From a bacterium (lineage in GTDB: Bacteria > Patescibacteriota > Minisyncoccia > Minisyncoccales > CG1-02-41-26): 10,498 bases of DNA. A program made the translations under genes and the position numbers. The notes under the pieces were generated by a model. That model made no database searches. It was not told the DNA's origin and was given only the letters and a program-made list of their open reading frames with translations. The stretch lies in NCBI GenBank assembly GCA_030615715.1, contig JAUWYS010000007.1:1-10498 (forward strand), written 5' to 3'. This document shows, one piece after another, positions 1 to 4,450 of the stretch (position 1 is the stretch's first letter; each line of letters opens with the position of its first letter).

Positions 1-1299
1 CTCAAATTTCCAACCTTCTGGTTTGAGCCAACACCGCAAGGATTATTTATGTTAAATATTGCCTTTGGTCAATCAAAATATTTTGTAGATAATTTGCGAG
101 AGAATGTAAAAAGAGGATTGAGGCAGAAAATTAGAAATGGAGTTTGGCCCGGCTGGGCGCCAGTTGGTTATCTCAATAATCCAAAAACAAGAATGATTGA
201 TATTGATAAAGACAAAACGCCAAAAGTCAAAAAACTTTTTGAACTTTATTCAACTGGCGAACATAATTTGAAATCTCTCGCAAATTGGTGTAAGGAGAAT
301 AATCTCAAAGGTAATCTAAACAAAGAAATTTCACCGAGCAACATTCACCGAATACTACAAAATATTTTCTACATTGGCCTGATGAAATACAAAGGAGAAA
401 TTTTTGAAGGAATTCACGAGCCGTTAATCTCAAAGAAACTTTTTGATAAGGTACAACAAGTTTTAAAACAAAGAGGGAAACCGCAAAAAATCAGAAAAAA
501 CAATTTTGTTTTTCTCGGATTAATGAAGTGTTCTTCTTGTGGTTGTTCAATCACCGCTGAAAAACAAAAAGGTCATCATTATTATCGTTGCACAAAAAAG
601 AAAGGGCCCTGCCAAGAAAAGCACTACTTGCGAGAAGAAGCGCTAACCGAACAAATCAAAAATTATCTTCAAAAAGTTTCTTTGTCGAGCCAAGACACAG
701 AAAAAGTCTTGTTTGAATTGAATAAAGAAGAACACCAAGCCAAAGAGCAAGTAAAATCTACTGTTCAAAATCTCAAAGAGGAATTGAAAACTATTGAAAC
801 TAAACTAGAAAAACTTTTAGATTTGCATTTAGCCGATGAATTATCCACAGAAGAATACTCAACCAAAAAGCAAAAATTTCTAACTCAAAAGTTAGAACTA
901 CAAGAGAAGATTAAAGATTTTGAACAAAAAGGATTGTCTTGGCTCGAACCGGCTCGTGAGTTTGTTTTATCCTTGAGTTATGCGGAAAAGTTGAGAAATT
1001 CCGAAAATTATCAAGAGATGAAAACATTTCTAAAAAATATCGGCTCGAACCACATTTTACAAAACCGAAAATTAAATTTTGACTGGAAAATTCCGTATAA
1101 TTTGGTCGCCGAGCGAAGCGAGGCGACCCACAAATCATTGACTTTTTCTCGGTGGTGCCCAGGGCGGGACTCGAACCCGCACGCCCAAATGGGCACGGCT
1201 CCTCAAGCCGCCGCGTTTACCAATTACGCCACCTGGGCATCAATTTTCTCTCCCCTTTTCTTTAATCTCGCTTTCTTGCCGACTCTTTTTCTTAGATAA
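1..1299 (+). CDS. Large serine recombinase, 5'-truncated by window edge, C-terminal read-through into host tRNA
   Basis: The frame is open from base 1, so the ATG at 49 is internal and the N-terminal resolvase catalytic domain with its serine lies off the window. Counting from that ATG, residues 1-30 match the long helix that ends the catalytic domain ([19 protein letters not shown]). Residues 38-140 resemble the Recombinase domain (PF07508 type). Residues 156-192 form a zinc ribbon (CSSC at 161-164, C181, C188), and about 218-292 is a charged coiled coil. This is the architecture of large serine integrases, which catalyse unidirectional insertion and excision of mobile elements. The last ~65 residues look non-native: residue 352 onward covers a GC-rich hairpin, then the antisense of tRNA-Leu (giving [12 protein letters not shown] sequence), then antisense rplS. 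The native C-terminus probably lies near 1100; the stop at 1297-1299 is simply the first one reached. The gene is AT-rich by eye compared with ftsH and gyrA, which fits acquisition by transfer. Confidence 0.9.
1104..1128 (-). repeat. GC-rich hairpin with TCGCTTCGCTC loop
   Basis: A perfect 7-bp stem (GGTCGCC/GGCGACC) encloses an 11-nt loop that reads TCGCTTCGCTC on the minus strand. It lies 24 bp downstream of the tRNA-Leu 3' end and inside the 3' end of the recombinase frame. The hairpin at 9463-9487 has a nearly identical loop (9 of 11 bases, flanked by CC and GG) on an unrelated stem, suggesting a dispersed palindromic element with a conserved loop. No T-tract follows on either strand, so it is not a classical terminator, although it could weakly end transcription of the tRNA-Leu unit. 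Confidence 0.7.
1153..1238 (-). tRNA. tRNA-Leu(GAG)
   Basis: The acceptor stem is GCCCAGG paired with CCTGGGC, followed by discriminator A and an encoded CCA (1153-1155). The D arm is GCG/CGC with a TAATTGGTAAA loop. The anticodon stem GCGGC/GCCGT holds loop TTGAGGA, giving anticodon GAG (reads CUC and CUU). A long class II variable arm (GCCCA-TTT-GGGC) is as expected for leucine. The T arm is GCGGG/CCCGC with loop TTCGAGT. The first 15 nt also encode the last four residues and the stop codon of rplS. The serine recombinase frame crosses it in antisense, so it is a candidate integration site. Confidence 0.97.
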
Positions 1300-1637
1300 T
1301 AAAGTTTTGCTCTTCTGACCTTCCCTCTTGTTAAGACCTCAATTTTCTCAATGATAGGAGAGTGTAAGGGAAAAATTCTTTCCACTCCAATCCCTTTCAC
1401 AATTTTTCTGACGGTAATGGTTGAGGAAATTCCCTTACCGTGTTTTCTTGCTAAAACCACTCCCTCAAAAAGCTGGGTTCTCCCTCTGTCTCCTTCTTTT
1501 TTATCTGCTGACTTACCAGCCTTTGTTTTAGCAGGAGCAGAGATTTTCAGATGAACCTTAACTGTATCTCCCGGACGAATATCCGGGAGGTTTTCTTTCA
1601 AAAAAGGTTTTATAAACTGTTCAATTTTGGTTGGCAT
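1224..1637 (-). CDS. rplS: Large ribosomal subunit protein L19
   Basis: The product is 137 aa. The L19 core is clear: [13 protein letters not shown] (about 20-32), [24 protein letters not shown] (about 56-79), [19 protein letters not shown] (about 84-102) and [21 protein letters not shown] (about 104-124). L19 sits at the 30S-50S interface and takes part in intersubunit bridges. A lysine-rich insert at about 33-50 lengthens the first loop compared with the usual ~115-residue protein. The ATG at 1637 is chosen because L19 homology begins there and the bases upstream are tRNA-Val. That leaves no room for a Shine-Dalgarno sequence outside the tRNA: the A of the ATG is the last base of the tRNA's CCA. 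At the other end, codons for A-Q-V-A-stop lie within tRNA-Leu. Making both tRNAs from the same transcript would destroy the start and the stop of this message. Confidence 0.96.
1568..1589 (-). other. Strong hairpin in the rplS 5' coding region
   Basis: A perfect 8-bp inverted repeat, CTCCCGGA-6 nt-TCCGGGAG, lies about 50-70 nt inside the rplS reading frame, over the codons for the conserved L-P-D-I-R-P-G-D stretch. Part of the symmetry may simply reflect these codons. The stem is GC-rich compared with the surrounding DNA and should form in the mRNA. A role in translation or RNA processing is speculative. Confidence 0.5.
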
Positions 1638-1714
1638 GGTGGGCGCGAGAGGACTCGAACCTCTGAACCTCATGCGTGTCGAGCATGCGCTCTAACCAGC
1701 TGAGCTACGCGCCC
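1637..1714 (-). tRNA. tRNA-Val(GAC), with atypical anticodon loop
   Basis: The acceptor stem GGGCGCG/CGCGCCC is followed by discriminator A and an encoded CCA (1637-1639). The D arm is GCTC/GAGC with loop AGCTGGTTA. The anticodon stem CATGC/GCATG holds the 7-nt loop TCGACAC. By position the anticodon is GAC (valine), but base 33, almost always U, is C. The variable region is six nt (AGGTTC), one longer than usual. The T arm is AGAGG/CCTCT with loop TTCGAGT. All four stems are perfect, so the gene looks functional; the valine identity is less certain because of position 33. It lies 3 bp after the stop of the HTH gene, and its final A is the first base of the rplS start codon. Confidence 0.88.
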
Positions 1715-1717
1715 TTT

Positions 1718-2398
1718 TTACAAATTATTATTCATTAATTGGAGGATTTCTTCACCGATAGTAAGTATTCTTTTATGGAGATTAGTATCACAGTAATATA
1801 CTGAGCAAACCCCTTTATAATCTTTGAAGGTTGGTTTAATTGTCCGTTTGTCAAATTGAGTTTTAATAAATTGTGATTTTGGAATATGTAGAATATTTGA
1901 CCAATAATCTTTGAGTTTTTCGTCCGACTGGTCTTTTCTTAAATTAAGACGGCAATGAAGTCTTGATTTTTGTGGTAAGTATAAATACTGAAATAAGTTT
2001 AAAAAAGCGGTTAAGATATTTGGGTTTGTGTTAGCAATTTCGACCCGTCCCCTTCCTCTAGTTCCTTCGGCTAAATAAAAAATAGCAAAAATTATCTCCC
2101 CTAGTTTTTTATCAATCGTAACATTCGAAGTGAACTTCTTTATACTATGTTCGATTTTCTTCATTCGATTCAGGCGTTCTTTTCTGTGAGCTTCATTTGC
2201 TTTTAATCTTGCTTTTACTAAATGAGCCAACGACTTTTGTCGTAATTTCTCTTTTTGCTGTTTTGTCAACTCAGTATTACGTAGCCACCCACTAAGAGTA
2301 GATCGTGCTACGCCCAAAATATTTTCAATATCTCGAATACTTCTCCCCTTTCTTCGTAATTTAACAGCCGCCTCTTTTTTAACTGTATCTGTTTTCAT
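1718..2398 (-). CDS. HTH protein with possible LAGLIDADG-like C-terminal domain
   Basis: The product is 226 aa. Residues about 6-42 form a helix-turn-helix (KLRRKGRSIRDIENILGVARSTLSGWLR) like those of transposases and resolvases. A basic linker covers about 43-92. The C-terminal part (about 97-225) contains IIFAIFYLAEGTRGRGRVEIANTNPNILTAFLNLF, with later segments resembling a family of HTH plus LAGLIDADG-like proteins common in Patescibacteria and archaea. That assignment is from memory of the family and is not certain. Only one candidate acidic motif is seen (LAEG, E111), so a nuclease would have to act as a dimer, or the protein could be a regulator. It sits between tRNA-Ile and tRNA-Val and is visibly more AT-rich than ftsH, suggesting insertion into a tRNA cluster. 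It has its own candidate promoter and an overlapping dyad upstream. Confidence 0.85.
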   Translation of the reverse strand: MKTDTVKKEAAVKLRRKGRSIRDIENILGVARSTLSGWLRNTELTKQQKEKLRQKSLAHLVKARLKANEAHRKERLNRMKKIEHSIKKFTSNVTIDKKLGEIIFAIFYLAEGTRGRGRVEIANTNPNILTAFLNLFQYLYLPQKSRLHCRLNLRKDQSDEKLKDYWSNILHIPKSQFIKTQFDKRTIKPTFKDYKGVCSVYYCDTNLHKRILTIGEEILQLMNNNL

Positions 2399-2478: not shown

Positions 2479-2507
2479 TACTAGTATTTATTACAATAAC
2501 TGTCTTG

Positions 2508-2579
2508 TGGGCACGGAAGGGATCGAACCTTCTACCTGTTGTTTATAAGACAACCGCTCTCCCAATGAGCTACGTGCCC
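2508..2579 (-). tRNA. tRNA-Ile(UAU)
   Basis: The acceptor stem is GGGCACG/CGTGCCC with discriminator A. The D arm is GCTC/GAGC with a short ATTGGGA loop. The anticodon stem GTTGT/ACAAC holds loop CTTATAA, giving anticodon UAU, which reads AUA. The variable loop is AGGTA and the T arm GAAGG/CCTTC with loop TTCGATC. CCA is not encoded (the genome has CAA after the discriminator), so CCA must be added after transcription, unlike the other two tRNAs here. The first 10 nt encode the last two residues and the TAG stop of ftsH, so it is probably cotranscribed with ftsH. Confidence 0.95.
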
Positions 2580-4450
2580 TTTAATTTTCTTTTTTTTACT
2601 CTCTTTCTCTTGGGAACTTTTTTGACACTTCCTTTTACCAATTTTTCAAATTCTTCTTTTTCAATGGTTTCTTTTTCAACTAGAACCTTGGCTACTCTTT
2701 CAAGAATTTTTTTCTTTTTCGCCAAGATTCCCATGGCTTTCCTTTCAGCTTCTTTTATAAATCTTTCCGTCTCTTTGTCAATGGCTGAAGCAATTTTTTC
2801 TGAATAGTTTCTTTCCGTTTCTTGTTCCCAGCCCAAGAACGGCAAGGTTTCTTTTCTGCCGAAAGAAATAGGACCCAGCTTTGACATGCCGAATTTGGTA
2901 ACTAAATTTCGGGCTAAGATACTTGCTTTTTCTAAGTCATTGGCTGCTCCGGTTGAGATTTCCTTGAATTTCAATTTTTCAGCGCAGAAGCCCCCCAGCA
3001 ACATAGCTAATTCAGCTAAGAATTCTGATTTAGTTTTAATCCTCTTTTCTCTTCTGGGTAAAGCTAAGGTATAGCCAGCAACCATTCCCCGGGCCACAAT
3101 GGAAATTTTTCTTACGATTTCAGCCTCAGGAATGGAAGAGGAAACCAAGGCATGGCCTGTTTCATGAAAAGCCGAGATTTCCTTTTCCTTGACAGACAAG
3201 AGGTGACTTTTTCTTTCGGGACCCAGCAAAACTTTTTCAATTGATTCTAAAAGTTCTTCTTGATAAATCTGATGTTTATTGCTTTGAGCTGCCAGGATGG
3301 CTGCCTCATTGACTAAGTTAGCCAGGTCAGCTCCAGAAAATCCAGGGGTGCGCTCAGCAATTTCCTTTAGATTAACATCCAGAGCCAATGGCTTACCCCG
3401 GCAATGAATTCTCAAAATTTGTTCCCTTCCCTTGACATCGGGCAAGTCTAAAACAATTCTTCTGTCAAACCTCCCCGGTCTTAACAGGGCCGGATCCAGG
3501 TATTCCGGACGATTGGTGGCTGCCAAAACGATGACACCGGTATCTTTTTCAAAGCCATCCATTTCAGCTAAAATCTGATTTAAAGTTTGTTCTCTTTCCT
3601 CGTGTCCTCCCCCAACCCCCACCGTTCTTATCTTCCCTATGGCGTCAAGTTCATCAATAAAAATAATTGAAGGTTGGTGCTTTTTGGCTGTTTCAAAGAG
3701 CGACCTTACCCGGGCTGAACCGACACCGACAAACAATTCAACAAAGGCCGACCCCACAATGGAAAAGAAAGGAACTCTGCTTTCGTTAGCCACGGCTCTG
3801 GCCATCAATGTCTTTCCGGTACCGGGAGCTCCTATGAGCAAGACACCTCTTGGAATTCGAGCTCCCATTTTCAAAAACTTTTTGGGATTTTTCAAAAAAT
3901 CAACCACTTCTCCTATCTCCTTTTTCGCCTCCTCCAGATCAGCTACGTCTTTGAAGGTAACTCTCTCTCCGGGAGCTTTTCCAGCTCCGAAAAGTTTAGC
4001 CGGTGACCTTAAAAAACTGAAGGTCTGGGAGGCTCCGGTTTTGGCTTGTCGGAAAATCATCCAGAAGAACCAGCCAAAGATTAAGAGAGGAACCAAGAAA
4101 AGCCCCACCAGAAGCAACCAGGTTAAACTATCTCCTTTTTCCTTTGTTATGGCTATTTTTAGCTCTCCTATTCTCTCTTTGGTTACCCCATAACCTATTA
4201 AGGATTCACTAAGAGAAACCCCGGTCTCTTTTCGGGAGCGAACTTCTTCTCCGGACTTATAAACTATTTGGAGTTCGTCCCCAGCCACCTTGATTTCTTC
4301 AATTTTTCCCTCATTGACTTCAAGGGCCACTTGGGAGAGGGGAATTTCCTCTATCTTTTTGAAGGTTTGAGGGCTCAGTAAAGCGAATATTCCCGAAATC
4401 AAGATAAAAATCAGGATGATAAAGATAAGATTTCTCAAAAGCTTTTTCAT
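2570..4450 (-). CDS. ftsH: ATP-dependent zinc metalloprotease FtsH
   Basis: The product is 626 aa, full length for FtsH, the membrane-anchored AAA+ protease that extracts and degrades membrane and regulatory proteins. Transmembrane helix 1 is at about 6-25, an extracytoplasmic domain at 26-108 and helix 2 at about 109-133. The AAA+ module has Walker A GAPGTGKT (207-214), the pore-loop FVG (240-242), Walker B IIFIDE (262-267) and the second region of homology with arginine fingers at about R324 and R327. The protease has zinc motif HETGH (429-433; HEAGH is more usual) and third ligand D505 in STGAANDLEKA. The last ~18 residues are a strongly basic lysine/arginine tail. The start overlaps the stop of the upstream S1 gene (ATGA), so translation is probably coupled. 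The TAG stop is bases 8-10 of tRNA-Ile(UAU). Confidence 0.98.
   Translation of the reverse strand: MKKLLRNLIFIILIFILISGIFALLSPQTFKKIEEIPLSQVALEVNEGKIEEIKVAGDELQIVYKSGEEVRSRKETGVSLSESLIGYGVTKERIGELKIAITKEKGDSLTWLLLVGLFLVPLLIFGWFFWMIFRQAKTGASQTFSFLRSPAKLFGAGKAPGERVTFKDVADLEEAKKEIGEVVDFLKNPKKFLKMGARIPRGVLLIGAPGTGKTLMARAVANESRVPFFSIVGSAFVELFVGVGSARVRSLFETAKKHQPSIIFIDELDAIGKIRTVGVGGGHEEREQTLNQILAEMDGFEKDTGVIVLAATNRPEYLDPALLRPGRFDRRIVLDLPDVKGREQILRIHCRGKPLALDVNLKEIAERTPGFSGADLANLVNEAAILAAQSNKHQIYQEELLESIEKVLLGPERKSHLLSVKEKEISAFHETGHALVSSSIPEAEIVRKISIVARGMVAGYTLALPRREKRIKTKSEFLAELAMLLGGFCAEKLKFKEISTGAANDLEKASILARNLVTKFGMSKLGPISFGRKETLPFLGWEQETERNYSEKIASAIDKETERFIKEAERKAMGILAKKKKILERVAKVLVEKETIEKEEFEKLVKGSVKKVPKRKRVKKRKLKGT

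Follow-up and report, generated by a model that had tools for sequence, protein, structure and literature searches.

In the genome of a bacterium of the class Minisyncoccia (Patescibacteriota; order Minisyncoccales, lineage CG1-02-41-26), the gene for ribosomal protein L19, rplS, shares nucleotides with the transfer RNA (tRNA) gene on each of its two sides. The window analyzed here is the whole stretch of 10,498 nucleotides (nt) at positions 1 to 10,498 of contig JAUWYS010000007.1 (assembly GCA_030615715.1), and its minus strand carries, in order, ftsH, tRNA-Ile(UAU), an open reading frame (ORF) of 226 amino acids (aa), tRNA-Val(GAC), rplS, and tRNA-Leu(GAG) (Table 1). We favor, at a probability of roughly 0.6, an explanation in which genome compaction has produced a punctuation by tRNAs resembling that of mitochondria. 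L19 would be made before the tRNAs are processed, leftover messages would be passed to transfer-messenger RNA (tmRNA) and SmpB, and no dedicated switch would be involved.

Table 1. Features on both sides of rplS, the neighboring ORFs, and loci elsewhere in which smpB ends within tmRNA (window coordinates unless a locus is named).
Feature	Position	Strand	Details
rplS (ribosomal protein L19, 137 aa)	1224..1637	-	ATG 1637-1635; stop TAA 1226-1224
tRNA-Val(GAC)	1637..1714	-	discriminator 1640; encoded CCA 1639-1637; ARAGORN, Rfam
Base common to tRNA-Val CCA end and rplS ATG	1637..1637	-	
tRNA-Leu(GAG) with encoded CCA	1153..1238	-	ARAGORN, Rfam
15-nt rplS/tRNA-Leu overlap	1224..1238	-	tRNA-Leu nt 1-15 double as the final four rplS codons plus UAA
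ftsH (AAA and peptidase M41)	2570..4450	-	10-nt overlap with tRNA-Ile, whose nt 8-10 form the stop UAG (2572-2570)
tRNA-Ile(UAU), CCA not encoded	2507..2579	-	same conserved cluster
Serine recombinase ORF	49..1299	+	antisense across whole tRNA-Leu and into rplS
226-aa ORF	1718..2398	-	between tRNA-Ile and tRNA-Val; weak HTH_28/transposase-like N terminus (below cut-offs)
smpB/tmRNA overlap, window genome	L293 625-645, contig C54		
Other smpB/tmRNA overlaps	L294, L295, L297, L298, L299, L308, L312, L331, L335		
Further smpB/tmRNA overlaps	L336, L339, L341, L343, L347, L359, L360, L363, L368		

The ORF between tRNA-Val and tRNA-Leu is L19 by its matches to Pfam PF01245 (E = 3.5e-41) and to TIGR01024 (over its cut-off), and its TAA stop is formed by nt 13 to 15 of tRNA-Leu. 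Calls of tRNA and tmRNA genes were made with ARAGORN and Rfam, and protein families were assigned with Pfam and TIGRFAM models. An initial interpretation of the window from its letters (the sequence-only reading) had described overlaps with both tRNAs, and ARAGORN, Rfam, and Pfam bear out both the overlaps and their coordinates. Alignments of L19 start at ATG 1637, and the N-terminal frame and length are unchanged in two relatives of the same genus, G001 and G002, and in G007, of the same family. By eye, codons 2 to 15 of the window genome differ from those of G007 by five synonymous changes and one I/V change, a pattern that supports translation from ATG 1637. The evidence from codons is mixed across relatives, the nearer ones being less clear: two synonymous and three amino-acid changes separate the window genome from G001, and two and four, respectively, from G002. 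Two other starts were considered and rejected. At ATG 1673, the start given in the ORF list, which lies inside tRNA-Val, the added residues merely translate the tRNA; at the in-frame TTG of codon 13, G007 has TTA, and no Shine-Dalgarno (SD) motif is seen by eye before that codon.

Throughout the class, rplS belongs to an old cluster consisting of ftsH, tRNA-Ile, tRNA-Val, in some cases rluA, rplS, tRNA-Leu, tRNA-Val, tRNA-Phe, and tRNA-Gly. L19 was matched in 56 of 60 genomes in a first search, the window genome included, and in 102 of 112 in a wider search of the class, from which 75 loci were read (4 from genomes already covered), with 2 more matches already covered and 25 left out of the count; the junction downstream of rplS was then read in 127 distinct class genomes (56 of the order and 71 other members). 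The next same-strand tRNA 3' of rplS is tRNA-Leu(GAG/AAG) in 116 of these (54/56 in the order and 62/71 in the others), with GAG in 111 and AAG in 5; of the remainder, it is Leu(UAA) in 3 and Val(UAC) in 2, no next tRNA is seen in 5, and 1 locus ends too early. Elsewhere in the phylum, tRNA-Leu(GAG) follows rplS within 26 nt in 4 of the 65 genomes examined from 166 with an L19 match (the 30 best scores and 35 chosen mostly for long contigs). Among 79 rplS loci assigned by record title to lineages outside the phylum, mostly Bacillota and Actinomycetota, it follows once, 146 nt away. Judged from gene order, the adjacency within the class is beyond chance. Outside the class, we also observe tRNA-Gly(UCC) 12 to 28 nt after rplS in 5 of the 65 genomes (L171, L173, L177, L234, and L245), all of one family (f62). 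An RluA-family gene often lies between tRNA-Val and rplS; the inserted ORFs form a BLAST cluster of 41, with some genomes counted twice, and the one RluA-like ORF tested scores 169 bits against TIGR00005, under the cut-off of 193.

The distance from the rplS stop to tRNA-Leu varies widely among the 116 genomes. It is at most 25 nt in 72, at most 10 nt in 52, exactly 0 in 7, and more than 100 nt in 17, and in five the two genes overlap (-1, -1, -15 in the window, -36, and -36), the stop of the -36 cases being, by eye, a UGA at the anticodon loop of tRNA-Leu. On these sequences, the overlap is the tail of a continuum of gaps running from -36 to hundreds of nt. The sequence-only reading had proposed a search of related genomes for the same overlaps and had held that normal spacing there would point to an assembly artefact. 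In G001 and G002 the rplS stop lies 5 nt ahead of tRNA-Leu, so neither of these relatives has the 3' overlap; at tRNA-Val, G002 shares the overlap and G001 does not (+7 nt). Given the continuum, the conclusion of an artefact from such spacing is too strong.

Compaction around tRNAs extends beyond this locus. A single rough ORF caller was applied to the window genome (G000; a 330-kb draft in 55 contigs, about 84% complete), to G001, and to G064, of another class, with 12 of 17, 40 of 45, and 40 of 46 tRNAs usable, respectively. The stop of a same-strand coding sequence (CDS) lies no more than 10 nt from the start of the tRNA in 7/9, 10/17, and 2/17 cases, the G001 figure being that obtained after removal of one apparent ribosomal RNA-spacer artefact. 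Upstream CDSs therefore end at or in tRNAs at many sites of the genome, as in mitochondria. The 5' side does not clearly separate the genomes, since a start codon lies within 11 nt past a tRNA in 6/9, 6/17, and 5/21 cases. In the window genome, genes starting close behind tRNAs include those of RNase J (+1), rpsO (+6), a UPF0102 gene (+6), and glmS (+11), RNase J and glmS being named from their first 150 residues. One base separates the start of the RNase J gene (L071 1586) from the end of tRNA-Leu(CAG) as called by ARAGORN.

Stops borrowed from RNA genes recur at two other junctions. The ftsH gene of the window ends within tRNA-Ile, an overlap absent from the sequence-only reading. An ftsH-like frame directly precedes tRNA-Ile(UAU) in 25 of the 29 loci where this tRNA is far enough from the locus end (domains confirmed by Pfam in the window only), and in 5 of these 25 ftsH ends within the tRNA: by 10 nt in G000, G035, G023, and G036 and by 21 nt in G011. 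For smpB, 90 of 94 class genomes searched had a match; 71 were analyzed and 19 left out, and 4 family members of the window genome were added to give 75 distinct genomes. The gene ends within tmRNA in 19 of the 75 (16/71 without the added relatives), spread over 13 families, whereas 14 show a gap of 0 to 25 nt, 31 a larger gap, and 11 no tmRNA in the stretch. An 8-nt overlap, with tmRNA nt 6 to 8 providing a UGA stop, accounts for 10 of the 19 cases. Of the 64 tmRNA starts, 10, including that of one overlap, come from our own motif and not from ARAGORN. The three junctions were chosen because each overlaps in the window genome and so do not represent tRNAs at large; their overlap rates are 4% for rplS (5/116), 20% for ftsH (5/25), and 25% for smpB (19/75), versus 0.2% in a broad survey (Hudson, Lau and Williams 2014, PMC4131195). 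The machinery for processing and rescue is widespread, with tmRNA in 7/7, SmpB in 7/7, and RNase P RNA in 6/7 genomes tested, all three in the window genome. ARAGORN predicts the tag peptide AKPAYALA for the tmRNA of the window genome. The class A RNase P RNA model, the only one tried, had no match in G044, which is rated 100% complete.

At the 5' junction, the sequence-only reading had argued that release of mature tRNA-Val removes the A of the rplS start codon. This need not be the case. By eye, CCA is encoded in only 3 of the 17 tRNAs seen in the window genome (Val-GAC, Leu-GAG, and Arg-UCG), and a CCA-adding enzyme domain is found in 7/7 genomes tested, the window genome among them. Because 14 of the 17 tRNAs lack an encoded CCA and this domain is present, tRNA-Val can probably do without the encoded A. 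Maturation of tRNA-Val may instead stop at the discriminator, with CCA re-added, and an endonucleolytic cut there would leave CC-AUG for rplS. A C follows the discriminator in 16 of the 17 tRNAs (L057-L072, by eye). Short distances from tRNA-Val to the ATG are found among the 56 genomes of the order (-1, -1, 5, 7, 8, 10, and 11) and, at 13 nt, in 1 of the 71 others. An SD-like motif precedes rplS at 4 of 125 class starts (125 of the 127 loci being usable) versus 67 of 79 loci outside the phylum, a contrast that is between lineages and not special to rplS. Class rplS leaders are A/U-rich, with a mean of 75% A+T over 20 nt, and the lowest values, 25% in the window genome and 30% in G002, occur because a tRNA precedes the ATG there.

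We propose that small deletions and losses of stop codons would erode spacers in a compact genome until tRNA-Val abuts the rplS start, and that rplS would then depend on one of the stops that occur within the tRNA-Leu sequence itself. Borrowed stops would turn up in varied registers and genes because any stop available in the adjoining RNA could stand in for the lost one. A single transcript would carry tRNA-Val, rplS, and tRNA-Leu; the sequence-only reading had assumed such a transcript, which is supported by the class-wide gene order and by the finding of no promoter-like match on the minus strand from 2442 to 1640. Ribosomes would start at the AUG without an SD motif and arrive at the UAA while tRNA-Leu is still unfinished and unfolded, and a terminating ribosome, given the size of its footprint, would sit over the tRNA-Leu 5' end and cleavage site, delaying RNase P. 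Afterwards, RNase P and 3' trimming would free the tRNAs. The cut rplS RNA would be nearly leaderless and end in ..AUU GAU, and late ribosomes on it would be cleared by tmRNA-SmpB. Translation through the overlap would give L19 the C terminus IDAQVA, and a message cut beforehand would encode a protein stopping at ..KID ahead of any tmRNA tag. The loss of the stop upon RNase P cleavage had been anticipated by the sequence-only reading and is consistent with the presence of RNase P RNA, tmRNA, and SmpB in the genome. Its corollary, that each RNA molecule yields either L19 or the tRNAs, overlooks timing, as RNase P needs the whole tRNA-Leu, which would be made after the rplS stop. L19 and the tRNAs would thus come successively from the same molecules, with some waste. 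It is the continuum of gaps, the unconserved overlap, and its recurrence in other registers and genes that favor translation first and processing later.

Several points weigh against this explanation. The co-transcription and the timing of rplS and the tRNAs are deduced from sequence, and the comparison of compaction has one genome per side outside the genus. The 5' overlap occurs in two of the three genus members examined and is not obviously deleterious. A curated RNase Z model finds 0/7 genomes over its cut-off, with no match whatsoever in the window genome, G001, or G044, a result that bears on how tRNA-Val would be cut from rplS. Finally, overlaps at smpB/tmRNA exceed short gaps, which is unexpected under simple drift and hints that overlap may be favored at that junction.

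A bolder proposal, tentative and in our view rather unlikely, is that punctuation is at work across the class. Nucleotides of tRNAs and tmRNA would supply the stops of ftsH (tRNA-Ile nt 8 to 10), rplS (tRNA-Leu nt 13 to 15 or the anticodon-loop UGA), and smpB (tmRNA nt 6 to 8), and proper translation of each message would end once the RNA behind it matures. Maturing tmRNA would turn the smpB message into a non-stop substrate of tmRNA-SmpB, making SmpB self-limiting, and the rplS wedge would be a two-ended instance. If regulation exists at any of these junctions, smpB/tmRNA is the most plausible place for it, as that junction overlaps often and SmpB would act on the very message that encodes it.

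Processing could also make the rplS message. If tRNA-Val were cut after the discriminator, a message with a 2-nt leader (CC-AUG) would be freed for leaderless initiation, as in mitochondria. The scarcity of encoded CCA in the genome, the rarity of SD-like motifs at class rplS starts, the recurrent short distances between tRNA-Val and the ATG (-1 to 13), and the starts of RNase J, rpsO, and glmS close behind other tRNAs all agree with this. Nevertheless, we consider it unlikely: the window genome has no match to the RNase Z model, a purely exonucleolytic trimming would destroy the message, and close starts are similarly common in the comparison genome (5/21) and G001 (6/17).

The sequence-only reading had gone further and suggested a regulatory switch, each transcript giving either L19 or mature tRNAs and so tying L19 supply to tRNA supply. 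We know of no special link between L19 and either tRNA-Leu or tRNA-Val. The overlaps at both ends are real, the processing machinery (RNase P RNA, tmRNA, and SmpB) is present, and the same hypothesis has been put forward for selB/tRNA-Sec (Mukai 2021, PMC8124441). However, the tRNA-Leu overlap is private to the window genome within its genus, the tRNA-Val overlap is missing in one of the two relatives, rplS runs into tRNA-Leu in just 5 of the 116 class genomes, and the shared A is probably not required for tRNA-Val. A regulated switch would be expected to persist at least within a genus, which this overlap does not, and a conserved L19/tRNA switch is therefore unlikely; a dedicated switch in this genome is possible but not indicated, and as an account of the wedge we find it quite improbable.

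As read from this draft assembly, the 15-nt overlap hangs on a single base, an extra A in the AAAA run before tRNA-Leu (reading gagaaaattgat up to the boundary and GCCC after it) giving a UGA one base upstream of the tRNA. An error of one base in assembly or sequencing is nonetheless a very improbable source of the 3' overlap. In its favor are this register, which can be read directly from the sequence, the stops of same-genus relatives 5 nt ahead of tRNA-Leu, and the state of the genome, an incomplete draft of many contigs. Against it, A runs this short are rarely misread, rplS and tRNA-Leu also overlap in four other class genomes (-1, -1, -36, -36), and the window genome has further overlaps at ftsH and smpB.

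Two ORFs next to the wedge look mobile. The serine recombinase ORF occupies the site where G001 and G002 have tRNA-Val(UAC), tRNA-Phe, and tRNA-Gly, and it has the look of an element that inserted into the 3' end of tRNA-Leu; in the survey (PMC4131195), opposite-strand CDSs downstream of tRNAs likewise have Resolvase as their top family. The 226-aa ORF separates tRNA-Ile from tRNA-Val, which are close neighbors in G001 and G002. Relatives of this ORF lie between other tRNAs of the cluster (L021 2170-2850, L044 148-846, and L153 2360-3034, in rplS-sense coordinates), as if the family moves among tRNA gaps. We also observe a second ORF family between rplS and the downstream tRNA (L196, L252, L254, and L286), which by eye resembles LAGLIDADG homing endonucleases.

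If RNA data bear out punctuation of this kind, bacteria of an entire class would routinely make messages whose useful life ends with the processing of a tRNA or tmRNA. This would help explain why genomes so reduced retain ribosome rescue. The feedback between smpB and tmRNA proposed for Carsonella would then extend to many families, and mitochondrial tRNA punctuation would have a bacterial parallel. In addition, gene callers that bar overlap between CDSs and tRNAs may misplace where ftsH, rplS, and smpB end in genomes of this type. Literature searches, mostly at the level of listings, returned no report of an rplS/tRNA-Leu overlap or an smpB/ssrA overlap in this group. As far as these searches show, the class-wide rplS/tRNA-Leu junction, the two-ended wedge, and the recurrent borrowed stops at three junctions, including smpB/tmRNA, are new.

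In mitochondria, protein genes lie between tRNAs from which few or no nucleotides separate them, the ends of mRNAs are made by tRNA excision, and leaders are near zero in length. The window resembles this arrangement in its flanking tRNAs and scant spacers and differs from it in being part of a bacterial genome with a ribozyme RNase P. A further difference lies in the cut rplS message, where 3' addition of A cannot make a stop at ..AUU GAU, and rescue would be needed for this reason. That a CDS can end in a tRNA or tmRNA, and the hypothesis of a resulting non-stop message, are already known (PMC4131195, PMC8124441). The bacterial survey counts 250 upstream, Pfam-positive CDSs ending in such genes among 115,660 tRNAs and tmRNAs. 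Our rplS case is of the same kind, a functional CDS in the same orientation with its stop inside a valid tRNA, whose maturation should remove that stop; ftsH/tRNA-Ile and smpB/tmRNA here belong to this kind as well. The text available names no rplS case, and among upstream CDSs its top family is FtsW/RodA, found with tRNA-Ile(CAT) in Helicobacter. It describes smpB/ssrA feedback and reports smpB/ssrA overlap only in half of Carsonella strains, whereas here the overlap is found in 19 of 75 genomes and 13 families of another group. For selB and tRNA-Sec, Mukai 2021 proposes that excision of the tRNA leaves the upstream mRNA without a stop and the downstream one without a leader, with alternative expression of protein and tRNA, and in Dyella and Luteibacter the stop lies inside the tRNA, as it does for rplS. 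There, however, the tRNA is the partner of the protein itself and the overlap, though not essential, is highly conserved, whereas the rplS overlap is not kept among relatives, G001 and G002 being 5 nt clear of tRNA-Leu and G001 7 nt clear of tRNA-Val.

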